IMG/VR virus record: IMGVR_UViG_3300017727_000170 | Location: 1-23,157 of that record | Length of the DNA stretch: 23,157 nt | Reading direction: 5' to 3' (one strand) | Source: a virus | Program-made: the position numbers and the translations under genes | Notes under the pieces: model-generated | Told to the model about the DNA's origin: nothing | The model's input: only the letters and a program-made list of their open reading frames with translations | Databases searched by the model: none | Shown here: piece after piece, positions 7,617-16,707 of the stretch | Layout of the letters: the number at the start of each line of letters is the position of its first letter | Numbering within the stretch: the first letter of the stretch is position 1

Positions 7617-8330
7617 ATGTCACTACCGAAGATTGGTTATCCTATTTCTAGTATTACTGTGCCTTCTACAGGCAAAAATATTAAAATTAGACCATTTACC
7701 GTAAAAGAAGAAAAGGTGCTTTTACTAGCATCAGAAGATGGGAACGAAGATGGAATTAAAGATGCAGTTATTGACCTTCTTCAAAACTGTATTACAAGTA
7801 GAGGAGTAAAAATTGAAAGTTTAGCATCTTTTGATTTAGAGTACATTTACTTAAAAATTAGATCTGTCTCTGTTGGAAGCACAGTAGAATTCGTTATTAC
7901 TTGTAGAGATGATGGTGAAACAACTACAACTGTAACAGTAGACCTTGAAAGTGTGGAAATTGAGTTCCCAGAAGGTCATGATAAAAAAATCATGCTTGGT
8001 GACAAGCTTGGATGTGTTATGAAGTATCCTGGAATTGATACTTTTGTTAATGTTTCGCTTTTAAAGAAATTTGAAGAAGATGATGTAATTGACTTCATTG
8101 CAGATTCTATCGATCAAATCTTTGATGAGGATGAAGTATTTGACAGCTCAACTACTACAAAGGAAGAGTTTAAGACATTTGTTGAAAATCTAACCAGAGA
8201 ACAATTCGATAAATTCTCTGAATTTTTTGCAACTGCACCAAAACTGTCTCATACATTCGAGGCAAAAAATCCAAAAACTGGTGTTGTTGATGAATATACA
8301 ATTGAGGGATTATCTAATTTTTTCGGGTAA
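7617..8330 (+). CDS. 26: gp26-like baseplate hub / tail assembly protein
   Basis: A 237-aa homolog of T4 gp26, the T4_baseplate family (PF12322). The family pattern is seen in the N-terminal LPKIGYPISSITVPSTGKNIKIRPFTVKEEKVLLLASE, where 'P....t.lPStg..i..rPf.vkEeK.LL.A.e' is diagnostic, and in CITSRGVKIESLASFDLEYIYLKIRSVSVG (~57-86). It is also seen in the ITCRDDGETTTTVTVDLESVEIEFPE segment. The C-terminal ~80 residues are acidic and helical. The last sense codons before the TAA form a TTTTTTC run followed by a stem (see the frameshift feature). Part of the product may therefore read on into the next small frame, giving 294 aa. In T4, gp26 acts in hub/baseplate assembly. Confidence 0.88.
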   Translation: MSLPKIGYPISSITVPSTGKNIKIRPFTVKEEKVLLLASEDGNEDGIKDAVIDLLQNCITSRGVKIESLASFDLEYIYLKIRSVSVGSTVEFVITCRDDGETTTTVTVDLESVEIEFPEGHDKKIMLGDKLGCVMKYPGIDTFVNVSLLKKFEEDDVIDFIADSIDQIFDEDEVFDSSTTTKEEFKTFVENLTREQFDKFSEFFATAPKLSHTFEAKNPKTGVVDEYTIEGLSNFFG

Positions 8331-8356: not shown

Positions 8357-8500
8357 TACTATAAAACTAATTTTGCTTTGATTCAGCACCATAAATATAG
8401 CTTGACGGAAATTGAAAATTTAATGCCGTGGGAACGAGATGTTTACACTGCATTATTGCAACAATATCTTGACGAACTTAAAAAAGCACAAGAAAGCTAA
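8342..8500 (+). CDS. Small ORF after gp26, probably the frameshift extension of a tail assembly chaperone
   Basis: 52 aa from the ATG at 8342 (MSLEGYYKTNFALIQHHKYS), then LTEIENLMPWERDVYTALLQQYLDELKKAQES. It is in the -1 frame relative to gp26. If entered by frameshift, it adds 58 residues (from codon CGG 8324-8326) to the first 236 of gp26. The 'y.l.ei..mPw.e...y..ll..yl' pattern and location directly before the tape-measure gene match the second ORF of tail-assembly-chaperone pairs. T4 gp51 follows gp26 in T4 but is much larger (~249 aa), so this is not simply gp51. The internal ATG has only a weak, poorly spaced SD (GGGTAAG) and lies in the loop of the predicted stem, favouring the fusion. 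The stop overlaps the next start (TAATG). Confidence 0.7.
   Translation: MSLEGYYKTNFALIQHHKYSLTEIENLMPWERDVYTALLQQYLDELKKAQES
8391..8397 (+). promoter_or_regulatory. Late promoter box upstream of the tape-measure-like gene
   Basis: ATAAATA (context CCATAAATATAG) lies about 100 nt before the ATG at 8500, within the small post-gp26 ORF. The 7-of-8 match to TATAAATA suggests a second late transcript beginning just upstream of the large gene. Confidence 0.5.
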
Positions 8501-11500
8501 TGGCATCGGGATCTTACGCAATTAAAGGTTTACAACTTGCGGACATTAAAAGGGTCTTCAAGGTAAAAGCTAACAGACAGCAGGCAAGAGCAGGTGATGT
8601 AATTAAATTTACAATCACTGCTACTGGTGTTTCTGATAGAACTGTTAGATCTTACTATATTGAAGGGGTTGCTCCAGAGGATCTTGCTGACCAAAAAACA
8701 GGTGGATTGTTTTATCTAAGACAAGGAGAGGCAGAAGTTTATGTTCAAATTGCCCCAGATTATGATAATGATAAAGATGTAGAACTAGTATTTAATGTAG
8801 TTGATAGTAAATCAACTCTATTCAGAATTAAACGTCCTCCACAAGCAAAAGTCCTTATTAAAGGAGATGGAGAACCAAGTCAGGAAAGAGATAGAAAAAG
8901 ATTAAAGGATCAAAATAGAAAAAGAATCCAGCAAGGAAAGGATGGACAATTAACAAGACAAGATCCAATTCAGAGAGTTCGTGTCAGTGAACAGCAACAA
9001 AAAGCACTAAAATATGGAGTAAAACAACTACCTGGAATGCGTCAGAGGGCATTACCTGCTGGAAGACCAAGAGCACTGCCAGGAGTAAGAGCACCTAAGG
9101 CACTACCTCCAGTTGGTGGAATGCCTGCTAGTAGTCAAATTGTTGATATAACTCCTATTAGCAAAAGTGTACGTCCTATGGGTGGATCACTTGCTAGATC
9201 TGGTGGTGGAGCACTTGCTAGATCTGGTGGCGCAGGCGCAATGAGAGGTGTTAGAGCTCCTGGTGCGCTTGGTGTGGCAACTGCTGGAATGGAATTTGGC
9301 AGTAGAATGAGTTCTGGACAAAATGTAGTACAAGCTGGTGCTGGAACTGCTGCTTCTGTTGGTGGTGGAATTGCTGGTATGAAAGCAGGTGCTGCAGCAG
9401 GCGCTGCATTGGGATCTATTGTTCCTGGTATTGGAACTGCTATTGGTGGAATTTTAGGTGGTGTTCTTGGTGGTATGGGTGGATCCATGCTGGCATCTAA
9501 AGCAACAGATACAGTAACTGGTGCAAATCGTCAAGAATTTGCAGAAGGTGGACATATCATTCCTAAAATGACTGATATGCCATTCAATCTACCTGGATTG
9601 AAAGGATCTTTTAATGAACCTGGAAATCCAGAAATGCTTAGTATTACTCCATTGGATGATCCTTTAAAAGCAGCACAATCTATCTCTGGTATTGCAAGTG
9701 CAGCTGGTGGTATGCTCCCTGGTATGGGTATGCTTGGTGGTATTCTCCCTGGTATGGGTATGCTTGGTGGTATTGGTTCTGCCGTTGGTGGTGGTTTAAA
9801 AAATATCTTTGGTGGTAAAGAAAAGGAATATAAAGGTATTGCATCAGCAATTGGTGCAGAAATGGAAAAAAGAGGTATTGGTGATCCACTTGGTTTGAAA
9901 GGTGGTAAATCGTTTGGTAATAGTGTTAGAGACCTCTTAGACAAAATTCCTGGTATCAAAGATATCTTTGGTAAGCGTGATGGTAATACACAAGGTCAAC
10001 AACAGGGTACTTCTCCTGGTGGTGGACAGATGAGTAATGTTGCTGGAAGCACAGCAGAAAGAAATGCTGCAGCATTCTTATCTACCTTAGAAGGCACCAG
10101 TGGACAGAATGCTGCGGATGCTATGCAAGTAATGCTTAATAGAACTGCTGATGCACAAGCAGGTGGTTCTATGAGTGCATACGGATCTACTTTGTTTGAT
10201 CAAATTACAGGCAAAGAACAATTCTCACCATTCTCTGCAGCAATTTATGGAACTAGTGCTGATCCTGATGCTGCAGCAAAATATGGTCCACTAGCGCAGC
10301 AACTTGGATCTAGTCCAGAAGAAAGAAAGCAAAGATTATTACAGATTGCAGGACAACCAGATGGAATGCAGCAATTAGAAAAATTATTTAAGGGTGGATC
10401 TGCATCTGCTGCTGGAGAAGTCCTTAACGATTTTGCCACTGGTGGTTCTTTATCTCAAACAGCTGCTCAAGGTATTGGATCTAAGGTATCCTTCAGAGGA
10501 TATAGTCGAGGTTTACCAGCGGATCGTTTTAATAGAGGAACAGGTGGAAATTATTTCTTCGACAATTCTTCTACAGGTAAAGTAGGTTCACTTAGTGATG
10601 TTTCACAATCACCAGCAATGCAACAACCTCAAGGAGCAGGTCAAACTGTAGTTCTTGCTGGTGGAACAAATAGTGCTGGTGATCCTGTTGGAGCAGGAAG
10701 AGATATGATGAACTCTATTAAAAATCTCAAGGAGAAGGGATACAGAGTTGTTGTAGTTCCACCTAATCAAAAAGAATATCCAGCAGCTTATGGTGCAATT
10801 AAATCTGCTGCTAAAAATGAAGGTGCAATTGTAGAGGAAGGAACTTACGAAATTAGCGATCCTTTGCATCTTACATCACAATTTTCAAGTCAACTTAACT
10901 CTAAGTATGCTGGTGCTATCTTCATGGGAGATAGTAATGCTGCAAGAATTGCTGGAGATCGTGGTTTAAAAAATGTTAGAAGAGAAGGTGCTGGAACTGG
11001 TGAAATTTTACAGCAGGCACAAAAAATGCAAAGAGCACCTGCTGCTAATAATCAATTGAATCCAGGTGTACAGCAGATGAGTTACTCACCATCTGCTGCT
11101 GGTACACAAGCTGCATCAAATGCAGCGGTTCAACCACAAACACCAATGCAACCAACTGCTATGTTGGAGGGTGCTGGAACATTCGTTCAAGGTAATAGTG
11201 GAAGTTCTCGTGGACCTCACTTCCATATTGGACCAGAACAAGAATTATGGGGTAAACCAGAAGGTAAAGCAGAAGTAAGACGTGCATCATTTAAGATCGC
11301 AAAGGCTCTTATTAATAAAGGAGAACATTTCTCGTTTACAAATGCAAATATCAATATTGATCCTAATAATCCACCCGATGATGCAACATTGATGAAATAT
11401 GTTGAACAAGAACAAATAGCTCATGCTGGTAGAGATGGTGGTGGATCTTTTGGTGGTATAGATATTGCTGGAAAACCTGGATTACGATTGCCTCTTGGTG

Positions 11501-11976
11501 TTTCTAATTACAAAGAGTCATCTACAGGATTTGGAAATACTGCAACAATTGCTGGAACTAGAGCATTTGTTGCACATGGTATGACTGGATCTGGCAACAC
11601 TCCTGGTGCAAATGCTTTAGCACCTGGTGCTTCTCCTTCTAATGGTGTACAGTTGATGAGTAATACATCACCAGCAGCACCAGCAGGAAACCCTGAAGAT
11701 TTCTTCAAATTCGCATTTGGTGCTCAAGGAAGGGAAAGTTCATATACAGCACCACCAAACGCTGCACCAACTGCTCTATTAGAGGCATCTTCTAATACAG
11801 CGATGGCATCAGCAGGACCAAAAGTTGCTATTGTAAATAACCCAGTTTCAAATTCAGCCAACGTTAGTAATGGTGGTGGATCTCAATCTCAACAATCAAG
11901 TAGAGGTTCTGATATGTCTGATGCGGGATTACTAGCATATATGGCTAAACAAAGATTATTAACCTTAGGAGCTTGA
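8500..11976 (+). CDS. Tape-measure-like tail protein with SleB-, SGNH- and M23-like hydrolase motifs
   Basis: 1158 aa. Residues ~15-112 form an Ig/Calx-beta-like domain (KANRQQARAGDVIKFTIT). A basic linker follows (~128-155), then an Ala/Gly-rich hydrophobic region (~281-335, with GxxxG runs) and a Gly/Met repeat (~403-425). Residues ~518-690 look like a SleB/Hydrolase_2 cell-wall hydrolase: LSTLEG with candidate Glu531, DAMQVMLNR, GKEQFSPF, GGNYFFDN. Residues ~717-835 carry SGNH motifs in the order GGTN (721-724), DPLHLT (787-792), GDSN (810-813). Residues ~895-1030 carry M23-like motifs: GPHFH (905-909), GGIDIAG (D988), VAHG (H1026). Position after the gp26/chaperone locus, the hydrophobic central region and wall-hydrolase modules fit a tape measure that aids DNA entry. 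T4 gp29 is much shorter (590 aa), so orthology is uncertain. Confidence 0.7.
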   Translation: MASGSYAIKGLQLADIKRVFKVKANRQQARAGDVIKFTITATGVSDRTVRSYYIEGVAPEDLADQKTGGLFYLRQGEAEVYVQIAPDYDNDKDVELVFNVVDSKSTLFRIKRPPQAKVLIKGDGEPSQERDRKRLKDQNRKRIQQGKDGQLTRQDPIQRVRVSEQQQKALKYGVKQLPGMRQRALPAGRPRALPGVRAPKALPPVGGMPASSQIVDITPISKSVRPMGGSLARSGGGALARSGGAGAMRGVRAPGALGVATAGMEFGSRMSSGQNVVQAGAGTAASVGGGIAGMKAGAAAGAALGSIVPGIGTAIGGILGGVLGGMGGSMLASKATDTVTGANRQEFAEGGHIIPKMTDMPFNLPGLKGSFNEPGNPEMLSITPLDDPLKAAQSISGIASAAGGMLPGMGMLGGILPGMGMLGGIGSAVGGGLKNIFGGKEKEYKGIASAIGAEMEKRGIGDPLGLKGGKSFGNSVRDLLDKIPGIKDIFGKRDGNTQGQQQGTSPGGGQMSNVAGSTAERNAAAFLSTLEGTSGQNAADAMQVMLNRTADAQAGGSMSAYGSTLFDQITGKEQFSPFSAAIYGTSADPDAAAKYGPLAQQLGSSPEERKQRLLQIAGQPDGMQQLEKLFKGGSASAAGEVLNDFATGGSLSQTAAQGIGSKVSFRGYSRGLPADRFNRGTGGNYFFDNSSTGKVGSLSDVSQSPAMQQPQGAGQTVVLAGGTNSAGDPVGAGRDMMNSIKNLKEKGYRVVVVPPNQKEYPAAYGAIKSAAKNEGAIVEEGTYEISDPLHLTSQFSSQLNSKYAGAIFMGDSNAARIAGDRGLKNVRREGAGTGEILQQAQKMQRAPAANNQLNPGVQQMSYSPSAAGTQAASNAAVQPQTPMQPTAMLEGAGTFVQGNSGSSRGPHFHIGPEQELWGKPEGKAEVRRASFKIAKALINKGEHFSFTNANINIDPNNPPDDATLMKYVEQEQIAHAGRDGGGSFGGIDIAGKPGLRLPLGVSNYKESSTGFGNTATIAGTRAFVAHGMTGSGNTPGANALAPGASPSNGVQLMSNTSPAAPAGNPEDFFKFAFGAQGRESSYTAPPNAAPTALLEASSNTAMASAGPKVAIVNNPVSNSANVSNGGGSQSQQSSRGSDMSDAGLLAYMAKQRLLTLGA
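9706..9765 (+). repeat. Tandem 30-bp repeat in the tape-measure-like gene
   Basis: Two adjacent 30-nt copies (9706-9735 and 9736-9765) differ at one base and encode GGMLPGMGML and GGILPGMGML. A partial third copy follows (GGIG). This is a short coding minisatellite that could expand or contract in frame. Confidence 0.85.
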
Positions 11977-13435: not shown

Positions 13436-13663
13436 ATGGAAAGCATCGAGCAACATATTCAAAAAGATAAGGAAATCCTAGATAATCCTAGCCTTTCCCC
13501 ACAACAACGCCGTCATATTGAAGGCGAACTACATGAGTTAGAAGAGTATGTGGAACATCACAAGAAAGAGATTGATGAAGGAGATCATCACGATCCCACA
13601 TACATTGAGCTCTATTGTGATCAAAATCCATCGGAACCAGAATGCTTAGTGTATGAAGACTAA
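13436..13663 (+). CDS. Small acidic helical protein between gp27 and gp5-like genes
   Basis: A 75-aa protein beginning MESIEQHIQKDKEILDNPSL, with SPQQRRHIEGELHELEEYVEHHKKEI forming long helices (~21-46). The tail DPTYIELYCDQNPSEPECLVYED carries two cysteines. The pattern looks like a conserved cyanophage small protein found beside the hub genes. Possible roles include hub assembly chaperone, from its location only. It overlaps the next gene by 1 nt (TAATG). Confidence 0.75.
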   Translation: MESIEQHIQKDKEILDNPSLSPQQRRHIEGELHELEEYVEHHKKEIDEGDHHDPTYIELYCDQNPSEPECLVYED

Positions 13664-16600
13664 TGGATAATGCGTTTTCTAATCTAATTCCAGAATATCG
13701 TATTGGAAGAGATAATTTTAATTGGTGGATTGGACAGGTTGAAAAACCATCCAGAACTACACCAGAAATTAAAGGTTCTAATCGATATAAAGTTCGTATT
13801 GTAGGTGAGCATCTCAAAGATTGTGAGATTGTCCCTCCTGATGATTTGCCATGGGCATCTGTAATAATGCCTGTGAACTTACCATTTAGTGTTGGAAATT
13901 TAACAGGAACGCATGCACAGTTAAAGCAAGGATCATGGGTAATTGGATTTTACCTAGATCCAGAAAAACAAAAACCAATTATCATGGGGTCAATTGGTAT
14001 GACCCCAGGTGCTACTAAGGTAGTAAATGAATTTCAACCTGGTGAATGTAATTCTTTCACTACATTTCTTGACCCAGATATTGATGTCAATAAAGATGGA
14101 TTACCATCACCAGCAAATAATAGAACACAAACATCATCACAATCTGCTGAATCAACCCCTTCTAGAGAACCAAAAAAATCTAAAGACGGTATACAAACAG
14201 GTGCAGTTCTCTTTGATGAAACTTTAACAGCAGATTTTAATAGTGTAGACCTAGGTCTCGGTATAGAGTATAGTCAGTTCTTTGGAGCTGGTGATGGAAC
14301 GTTTGCTACGTTCGCCACATCATCTGATGGTCTAGAAGGATTGCAAACATCAGTAGAACTATCTGCTGGTTGTCCACATCCATGGGCTCCTCCAGTACCA
14401 CCAGCAATGATTGCTCCTATTGCTGATGGATCCCAAGCATCTGAGGACTGGTGTCAAGAAAGAGCATCTAAGTGTGGTCCTGAAGATCTCAAGACATCAA
14501 CTACCCGTATTATGGGAGAGTTTCTTGCAGAAGTACAAAGAAATAATGGAAATATTGGTACGTACCTAGTTGGCGAAGCAACGGGTGGAATTACCGATGC
14601 TGTATACACAGCTAGGAAATATACAAACAAATTTGTTGCTGTCATTAAACACTTTATTGCTAAAATCAAAGGATTTATTATAGAAAAACTCACGGAAGGA
14701 GTTGAGGCATTAGTAAAAGCAGTGTTAAGACCAGATGGAACTGGAAATGTATTAACACCCGTAGTTGAGTGGTTTAATACTCTACTCAAAGATCTTGGTT
14801 GTAAAATGGCGGACATTGGAGAAAGATTAGTCCAATGGGTGACAGATCTTTTGATGGGTATTATCAATGACATTTACCAGAGTGTAGCATGTCAGATTGA
14901 TGCCATGGTAAATGGTATTCTATCCAAACTAACTTCATTAATGGAAAATATTATTGAAAGTATTCTTGGACCACTACAAGATCTCTTGGGACCAATTGCT
15001 GGCGCTTTAAATTTAGTTGGTGGAGCAATTGCTAAGGTTTTAGATTTCTTGGGCATTTCTTGTAGTGGTCCTGAAGCAAAATGTAGTGAAGAAGATAGTG
15101 AATGTACTAATGGTGAGGAGAAAAAGAAAGAAGGTGACTTCTTAGATGATCTATTAGATAGTATTGATAATCTTTTCCCAGACACTAGTGCTGATACTAA
15201 TCAGTATGTTTGTGATGAAGCGTATGAAGGTAAGAAATTACAACCAACTCGCATTGGGTTCCGTGGTGGCGTATTTGATAGTAACTATGCAAATTCACCT
15301 AAGAACAATCCGAATAGTAACACATACAAGAAGAAGATAGTATATGATATTCAAGACATTGATGTAAAAGAGGGTGATAACGCAGTATTTACAATCACTA
15401 GAAGTGGATATGTAACTGAAGCATCTTCTGTAACTTTTAAAACAGTTGGTGGATCAACAGCAACTCCAAAGAAAGATTTTATTATGGTCACTGATATTGT
15501 TGGTTTTGCTGTAGGAGAGACATCAAAAACAGTTGAAGTCAGAACAATCAATGATAATGATAATGATGAAGGAGATGAAATCTTTTTTGCTAGAATTAAA
15601 CTAAACAGTCCTGATACAACTAGTGGTATTACTACTAGATTCGAGAATAACGTTGCTAAGTGTACAATCAAACAAAAAATTAAAAACAATTTTGACGATT
15701 ATGATCCATATGATCCGTATGAATACACTTTTGATGGTATCATAGAAGAAATTGAAACTGGTATTCCTGACACTCCTGCAGGTGAGAGTTCTGATGATGT
15801 ATCTACAGATCCTTCCTATAAGGTAGTTGCCAACAGAACTTCTGTCTCTGCTGGTGAATTTATTATCTACACTGTTACTACAGAAAATGTTTCTAGTGGT
15901 AGTATTTTAAATTATCGCTTATCACCAAACTTTACTCCTACTCAAATCTTAGGTGGAATTATTTCTTCTAATTTTGTTATTAATGATAATCAGGCAAAGA
16001 TTACTGTTGGTATTGTAGATGAGTATGAATCTGAAACTGAAGAAGTGTTAACATTCAGTATATCTTCTACTAATGCATTTGCAGATGTTCTGGTTATACA
16101 AAACCAAGATATTACTGATGTTGACATCAGTGAAGGTGATACTCCAGAGAATGTATTTACATCTCCAACTGAACCAATTATTGATACAGGTGATATTATT
16201 ACTGATGATAGTGGAAAAATTATTGAGATTCCAGTAACTGTTCCTGGTGGTCCATATACTGAAGCTCCATTTGTAACAATTGGTGGTAATGGTATTGGAG
16301 CATCTGCTACAGCATTGTTGGATAGTGACGGGTTTGTAACAGAGGTTAGAGTGTTATCTGGTGGATATGGATATAAGAAGAATCTAGCATCCAACAACGA
16401 TAAGAGATGTATCATTGATACTTTTACTTTAATACGTCCTGGATTTGGATATCAAAGTTCTCCAACCATTTACATTGATGATGATCCAAGTATTGCTGAA
16501 GCAGTTATTAATCCAGATGGATTCCTTATTGGTGCTAGAGTATTGAATAGACAAGCAACCTTTGAACGAATTCCTAAAATTATTATTGTTGGTGGAGGTG

Positions 16601-16707
16601 GATATGGTGCAAAACTAATGCCATCCCTATCATGTCTATCAGAAGATAGATTGGTCGAAGTTGGTGCTACTAAGATTGGCACTGGTCGTTATGTAGATTG
16701 TCCGTAA
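13663..16707 (+). CDS. 5: gp5-type baseplate hub protein (OB fold, no lysozyme) with Calx-beta and beta-repeat modules
   Basis: 1014 aa. The N-terminal ~115 residues match the gp5/VgrG OB fold: WWIGQVE, RYKVRIVGEH, DDLPWASVIMP, LKQGSWVIGFYLDPEKQKPIIMGSIG. The region ~326-466 is hydrophobic and helical, followed by a Cys-rich patch (CSGPEAKCSEEDSEC). Residues ~556-663 are a Calx-beta domain (DVKEGDNAVFTITRSG; TPKKDFIMV; DNDNDEGDEIFFARI). Residues ~720-820 are a second Ig-like module related to the tape-measure N-terminus. Residues ~855-992 contain 'GG.GY..aP.v.i..g.GA.A.A..dsdGfv..v.v' repeats. No T4-type lysozyme motif is seen, and the spike is encoded by the next gene. In T4, gp5 combines OB fold, lysozyme and spike. 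Start overlaps the previous gene (TAATG). Confidence 0.8.
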   Translation: MDNAFSNLIPEYRIGRDNFNWWIGQVEKPSRTTPEIKGSNRYKVRIVGEHLKDCEIVPPDDLPWASVIMPVNLPFSVGNLTGTHAQLKQGSWVIGFYLDPEKQKPIIMGSIGMTPGATKVVNEFQPGECNSFTTFLDPDIDVNKDGLPSPANNRTQTSSQSAESTPSREPKKSKDGIQTGAVLFDETLTADFNSVDLGLGIEYSQFFGAGDGTFATFATSSDGLEGLQTSVELSAGCPHPWAPPVPPAMIAPIADGSQASEDWCQERASKCGPEDLKTSTTRIMGEFLAEVQRNNGNIGTYLVGEATGGITDAVYTARKYTNKFVAVIKHFIAKIKGFIIEKLTEGVEALVKAVLRPDGTGNVLTPVVEWFNTLLKDLGCKMADIGERLVQWVTDLLMGIINDIYQSVACQIDAMVNGILSKLTSLMENIIESILGPLQDLLGPIAGALNLVGGAIAKVLDFLGISCSGPEAKCSEEDSECTNGEEKKKEGDFLDDLLDSIDNLFPDTSADTNQYVCDEAYEGKKLQPTRIGFRGGVFDSNYANSPKNNPNSNTYKKKIVYDIQDIDVKEGDNAVFTITRSGYVTEASSVTFKTVGGSTATPKKDFIMVTDIVGFAVGETSKTVEVRTINDNDNDEGDEIFFARIKLNSPDTTSGITTRFENNVAKCTIKQKIKNNFDDYDPYDPYEYTFDGIIEEIETGIPDTPAGESSDDVSTDPSYKVVANRTSVSAGEFIIYTVTTENVSSGSILNYRLSPNFTPTQILGGIISSNFVINDNQAKITVGIVDEYESETEEVLTFSISSTNAFADVLVIQNQDITDVDISEGDTPENVFTSPTEPIIDTGDIITDDSGKIIEIPVTVPGGPYTEAPFVTIGGNGIGASATALLDSDGFVTEVRVLSGGYGYKKNLASNNDKRCIIDTFTLIRPGFGYQSSPTIYIDDDPSIAEAVINPDGFLIGARVLNRQATFERIPKIIIVGGGGYGAKLMPSLSCLSEDRLVEVGATKIGTGRYVDCP

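Follow-up and report, generated by a model that had tools for sequence, protein, structure and literature searches.

Canonical SGNH esterases present their catalytic blocks in the order S-G-N-H (blocks I-II-III-V). Circularly permuted SGNH families are also known and, in the accessible parts of the sources, comprise AlgX/AlgJ and DHHW (PatB1) (PMC9487903, PMC4148444). Both have the order H-S-G-N according to the same partial text (PMC9487903); AlgX/AlgJ carry a DxH motif and a block III Tyr, and PatB1 carries DHHW. OatA is a cellular O-acetyltransferase whose C-terminal SGNH domain is in canonical order, has a membrane acyltransferase partner (SGNH-AT3), and contains the motifs GDS, G(T/V)N, and Dx(I/V)H, as given in the available portion of PMC5697884. 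It adds O-acetyl groups to MurNAc, and walls are thereby protected from lysozyme (PMC9487903, available portion). Some SGNH esterases are described on phage tails or tail fibres in the available portions of PMC8471582 and PMC11058221.

The domain described here, which lies in a large tail protein of a virus, has the order N-H-S-G (III-V-I-II). Its motifs and predicted chemistry are like those of PF13472 (Lipase_GDSL_2) and canonical SGNH esterases; however, its block order and its scores below the Pfam cut-off place it outside that family. Among solved structures, its best sequence relative is the OatA C-terminal domain (5UG1/5UFY). The two share the three OatA motifs named above, and OatA acts on peptidoglycan; in contrast to OatA, our domain is rotated, is not joined to an AT3 domain, and is part of a phage tail lysin. 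Its DxxH and Asn, in place of the DxH and Tyr of AlgX/AlgJ or the DHHW of PatB1, together with its order, place it outside those families as the accessible text defines them. The predicted N-H-S-G cut is thus different from that of both described permuted SGNH families. The literature searched, which consisted mostly of papers outside subscription, gave no description of phage tails with a permuted SGNH domain; this is not proof of absence.

The window analysed was the whole IMGVR_UViG_3300017727_000170 record (23,157 bases). Pfam and PHROG searches revealed T4-like tail genes encoding a tail tube protein, a gp26-type baseplate protein, and a gp5-type hub/lysozyme, and also a gp32-type single-strand binding protein gene. 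The gp26-like baseplate hub protein is encoded at 7617..8330 on the + strand (PF12322, T4_baseplate, 4.9e-63; phrog_150), and the gp5-like baseplate hub and tail lysozyme protein at 13663..16707 on the + strand (phrog_1922, 1.3e-248). Between them, an ORF at 8500..11976 (+) encodes a tail lysin/tape-measure-like protein of 1158 aa, with the gp26-type gene directly upstream and a phrog_350 tail protein gene downstream. A phrog_150 baseplate hub gene was likewise present upstream of the domain-bearing gene in the four relatives examined (L052, L070, L071, L076), and was preceded by a tail tube gene in L070 and L076. The window's block order recurs in the "endolysin" proteins of Synechococcus phages ACG-2014d and S-SSM4, and there, too, the next gene downstream is labelled tail protein. 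Because of these cyanophage relatives and the gene order, we infer that this marine T4-like virus probably has a cyanobacterial host.

The 1158-aa protein matched no Pfam family at E<=1. Its PHROG matches fell mainly on a glycine-rich stretch (residues ~230-346), with tail associated lysin at 1.1e-9 and tape measure at 5e-9; the tape-measure matches were limited to this stretch. Either a hub lysin or a tape measure would be consistent with where the gene lies, but the protein, located in a baseplate-hub gene cluster, looks more like a tail-associated lysin. Residues 19-103 (8554-8808, +) and a segment of the gp5-like hub protein (15814-16071, +) had ~25% identity (E 4.7e-6). This common stretch adjoins or overlaps a Calx-beta match, and is a shared domain that possibly serves in docking. 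The window protein and that of relative L001 were identical across most of the C-terminal part, including the domain stretch; however, their N-terminal parts (window 8500-9900 vs L001 1160-2500) were quite different over several hundred residues. The window N-terminus resembled L046, unlike L001. The mismatch may reflect either a recombination breakpoint or an assembly chimera.

The putative permuted SGNH domain, recognized from motifs, profiles, and an AlphaFold2 model, spans residues 710-847 (10627..11040, +). The first-pass annotation had placed SGNH motifs within this protein, and all of them were found at the positions it gave. Block III is GGTN at residues 721-724 (10660..10671, +) and supplies the predicted oxyanion-hole Asn724. 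Block V is DPLH at 787-790 (10858..10869, +), with predicted catalytic Asp787 and His790. Block I is GDSN at 810-813 (10927..10938, +), with predicted nucleophile Ser812, and block II is EGAGTG at 829-834 (10984..11001, +), in which alignment identifies Gly830 as the oxyanion residue. The window has a GDS whose Ser is followed by a helix in the model, a G-x-N (GTN, 722-724), a DxxH, and a block II Gly. GTN...DxxH...GDS at loose spacing did not occur in any of 200,000 shuffles of the 138-residue domain, and GTN, GDSNA, and G830 did not vary when the window was compared with five relatives at 42-86% identity. The shuffle test and, more tellingly, this conservation make a chance origin of the motifs unlikely.

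Viral-contig scans and phage records yielded 42 distinct copies of the domain, nearly all on viral contigs, and the block order was III-V-I-II in all 42 when aligned. Several copies read GTND...DGYH...VVVGDSIA, which is textbook SGNH; the motifs of L063, L070, and L076 (GTND(W)...GYH(P)...GDSIA.G...G) are equally typical. Among isolates, the domain occurs in Synechococcus phages ACG-2014d and S-SSM4/S-SSM6b, in a form without Ser or His. The ACG-2014d domain is ~28% identical to that of the window, and, unlike the latter, it and the S-SSM4 domain have lost both residues. Two pattern scans of bacterial and archaeal genomes matched 41 and 158 stretches, none of which was confirmed as a relative; these scans thus provided no known cellular source. 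The L071 and L076 domains had no match when phages were searched by tblastn. A Desulfofustis phage tail protein (tblastn E 0.05) was rejected since no SGNH blocks were visible in it.

The first-pass annotation had proposed splitting the domain and re-joining it in canonical order for a profile search. A family profile of 10 diverse rows in native order (A9) gave the SGNH enzyme OatA as its top PDB sequences (5UG1, E 2.3e-4; 5UFY, 6.3e-4). HMMER aligned A9 to OatA as two swapped pieces, query 97-113 on chain 5-21 and query 6-77 on chain 56-123. When the same rows were re-joined canonically, with the tail trimmed by a few columns (A10), the best match was again OatA, now as a single alignment spanning almost the entire domain (E 8.6e-7, 32.2 bits), and a weak match was added to 4C1B (0.021), which we take to be an SGNH esterase. 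In rotation controls, the trimmed rows cut between beta-3 and beta-4 scored 20.6 bits against OatA and those cut between beta-4 and beta-5 scored 22.9 bits (E 3.9e-3 and 6e-4), compared with 24.3 bits for the native order. Relative to each of the other orders, the canonical rotation thus scored ~8 to 12 bits higher. Earlier profiles had given OatA E values of 0.016 (6 native rows) and 0.0014 (5 re-joined rows). Profiles were used for the rotation test because a single-sequence Pfam scan of L070 did not discriminate: the canonical cut scored 19.4 bits against PF13472 (another cut 19.6, native 17.8) and 20.6 bits against PF00657 (another cut 21.1, native 21.0), and was not singled out.

Pfam points in the same direction as the profile test, more weakly. 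In native order, the best Pfam matches of L043 and L041 were Lipase_GDSL_2 and SGNH models, and PF13472 was matched only over its block III-V half; after L041 was re-joined, the match extended to profile positions 1-141. The best PF13472 score (23.4 bits, re-joined L043) did not reach the curated cut-off of 32.9, and all Pfam SGNH scores of the domain copies were below curated cut-offs. The window domain had no Pfam match in native order even at E<=10, and reached only 0.026 when re-joined. Its rotation controls gave no match (cut at 35) and a PF13472 match at 0.051 (cut at 60); a shuffle gave no match. The degenerate L021 domain, when re-joined, had no SGNH match in Pfam. The rotation-controlled profiles, the relatives with textbook motifs, and the correlated retention of Ser and His described below support the first-pass claim of a circularly permuted SGNH domain, and residues ~710-847 very probably adopt this fold.

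AlphaFold2 predicted a confident alpha/beta fold in a second run with 28 rows (pLDDT 89.5, pTM 0.86); a first run with 12 rows had given 71.8 pLDDT and 0.69 pTM. In window residues, the model consists of strand 716-720, helix 729-745, strand 749-753, helix 761-773, helix 793-802, strand 807-810, helix 812-818 opened by Ser812, and helix 833-842. DPLH lies just before helix 793-802 and the block II motif before helix 833-842. Strands 716-720 and 807-810 precede GGTN and the Ser of GDSN, respectively. The block II strand was poorly formed, with lower confidence. The elements in the model follow one another as in SGNH, beginning from beta-3. In canonical SGNH, the sheet order is 2-1-3-4-5; renumbered from beta-3, it becomes 3-2-1-4-5, which is the Rossmann order. 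Foldseek, a sequential aligner, retrieved nothing from the PDB at E<=0.001 for either model, and the 50 matches listed contained no SGNH. Both Foldseek and VIA gave mainly Rossmann-like chains; the best VIA matches were Z 8.7 (rmsd 3.3, 121 aligned) for the first, weaker model and Z 7.2 (rmsd 3.9, 121 aligned) for the better one, with Z values near the background that the tool itself states. No SGNH was present among the VIA matches listed; VIA tests Foldseek candidates only, and this result was hence not counted against the fold. The best structural match in BFVD was A0A0E3G768 of ACG-2014d (E 2.6e-9), followed by another viral model, A0A6J5QC57 (E 7e-3), with the database label "SGNH_hydrolase domain containing protein".

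In the alignment, the Ser column had a letter in 39 of the 42 distinct rows and a gap in 3 rows from cut contigs. Ser was present in 27 of these 39 and replaced by another residue in 12. The Ser-bearing rows had the block III Asn in 27/27 cases and His in 26/27 (Gln in L035); no row lacking Ser retained His (0/12). This co-retention gave a Fisher p of 3e-9, computed ignoring relatedness. Across all distinct rows with a letter at the position, Asn occurred in 32/41 and the block II Gly, assigned by alignment only, in 31/34. A strict DxxH was found in 11 of the 27 Ser-bearing rows, and most others had an Asp further upstream. A tree of 38 rows, from which the 3 cut rows and L024 were left out and whose columns included the catalytic ones, required two changes of Ser state (bootstrap range 1-2). 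Thus, Ser and His behave as one functional unit that was kept in most lineages, including that of the window, and was lost together at least once, probably twice. Because the two residues are kept or lost together, catalysis is likely, and we consider the domain probably active in this phage. The 12 Ser-less rows show that it can persist without catalysis. In the clade of L064, L067, L068, and L069, which neighbours the intact L043, Ser and His are gone together with the block V segment and the rest of the domain is kept, apparently a recent loss of the predicted esterase active site.

Upstream of the SGNH domain, residues ~524-707 (10069..10620, +) resemble an SleB-type wall hydrolase by eye, a likeness that a Pfam search did not confirm. 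The enzyme module at this position (window ~10042-10620, +) is exchanged among relatives L002, L004, L046, and L087: by eye, the modules of the window, L004, and L087 are SleB-like, and L046 has another one. In L002, a GH24-type Phage_lysozyme (6.3e-13) stands in place of the window's module, and in L087 the swapped module precedes an HxH domain rather than an SGNH domain. We examined 28 full proteins, those of the 27 Ser-bearing rows and the window's own, at Pfam E<=0.001. Peptidase_M23 was found in 16, Amidase_5 in 2, Phage_lysozyme2 in 1, and Phage_lysozyme in 1, so that ~20 of the 28 have a wall-cutting Pfam domain provided that none has two; L002, L052, and L076 each have a single one at this threshold. 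The window's own protein had no wall-cutting Pfam domain (E<=0.001), and no AT3 domain was among the Pfam families matched by the 28 proteins. Several relatives were labelled endolysin or tail lysin by PHROG. Among Ser-lacking proteins, M23 was present in 4/11, including L064.

We favour the reading that the domain is a catalytically competent, permuted SGNH (acetyl)esterase that forms a module within a tail lysin and would prime a host wall or envelope glycan. The chain would start at beta-3 (block III, Asn724) and pass via beta-4 and beta-5 to block V (Asp787, His790), from which a short helix would lead to beta-1 with nucleophile Ser812 (block I), ending at block II (Gly830). The old N- and C-termini would thereby be joined and new termini opened between blocks II and III. 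The folded domain would have a Ser-His-Asp triad and an oxyanion hole formed by Ser, Gly, and Asn, and would hydrolyze esters. The lysin would be tail-borne and produced together with the baseplate hub, and the domain would be one of its interchangeable modules. At infection, the esterase would strip O-acyl groups, probably O-acetyl, from a glycan of the host wall or envelope and thereby open the way for the wall cutter next to it. Removal of O-acyl groups is suggested by the location of an esterase beside interchangeable wall cutters; we tentatively name peptidoglycan O-acyl groups as the target, with somewhat less than even confidence.

Two alternatives concern the fold. An ordinary Rossmann-like domain in native order (sheet 321456), with convergent GGTN, DPLH, and GDS, would account for the Rossmann-like proteins that sequential aligners matched over nearly the whole model (Z 8.7 / 7.2). 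Those values are near the tool's stated background, and a permuted SGNH topology (21345 -> 32145) must itself look Rossmann-like; such matches are what a cut at beta-3 predicts. The first match of the family profile was moreover OatA, with blocks I and III-V each on their own counterparts, and the Pfam models matched were SGNH/GDSL. A non-SGNH domain is therefore very improbable. Equally improbable is that two half-domains fold by swapping between adjacent subunits of a tail oligomer instead of forming one permuted chain. Tail hub proteins are oligomeric, but here the halves are linked by a short helix, AlphaFold2 confidently folds a single chain into a single domain, and the compact unit of ~135 residues recurs in different proteins.

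Other alternatives accept the permuted fold and differ as to its role. It may be a binding or spacer module whose catalysis is unused in this lineage, as the loss of Ser, and of His too, in two separate clades (11/38 tree rows) would allow; one of these includes ACG-2014d and S-SSM4, isolates in which the protein nonetheless bears the endolysin label. The window, however, retains Ser, His, Asp, Asn, and Gly, and the constancy of His and Asn in Ser-bearing rows (26/27 and 27/27) is unexpected for a drifting non-catalytic fold. We regard such a pseudoenzyme as improbable, though less so than either alternative fold. An active esterase may instead have a lipid as its target, or a polymer at the surface (O-antigen, capsule, or S-layer glycan), and so help the tail through the outer layers. 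Tail-fibre depolymerases act on surface sugars. SGNH enzymes have many carbohydrate targets, according to the accessible part of PMC9487903. The peptidoglycan-cutting Pfam domains in ~20/28 full proteins and the PHROG endolysin and tail lysin labels argue against a surface target. Surface depolymerases, moreover, are usually carried on tail fibres, not in hub genes. This role is unlikely, although it is the most credible of the four alternatives.

Downstream of the SGNH domain, residues ~891-1037 (11170..11610, +) contain M23/LAS-metallopeptidase-like motifs in an apparently swapped order: HFHIG, then HAGRD...GGID, then GFGN...VAHG. The motif order of M23 peptidases is H..D, xH, HxH. Relatives of this module were found at 28 viral loci (L081-L108), and an alignment of 19 distinct rows, drawn from 21 of these loci, kept the motif residues; its occurrences include aquatic viral contigs and S-CAM3 gp009. 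The M23 assignment received no support from Pfam, in native or re-joined order, or from a PDB sequence search. The module is possibly a permuted metallopeptidase-like domain. That the tail lysin has two permuted enzymes in a row, an SGNH esterase and an M23/LAS-like metallopeptidase with its HxH strand first, and that T4-like cyanophages repeatedly use permutation to fit wall enzymes into their tail proteins, is a doubtful proposition. If it is true, moved termini would let wall enzyme domains be threaded, tethered, or unfolded in the tail.

With the predicted domain, the SGNH fold gains another cut, between blocks II and III, beside the H-S-G-N of AlgX and DHHW. Both Pfam and NCBIfam miss this domain, which occurs in large tail proteins that aquatic T4-like phages encode and now gains a putative function. 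An order-blind reading of motifs can thus find enzymes overlooked by order-bound profile searches. Our reading predicts that these phages carry an esterase along with their wall cutters, and that their hosts may protect their walls by acylation.
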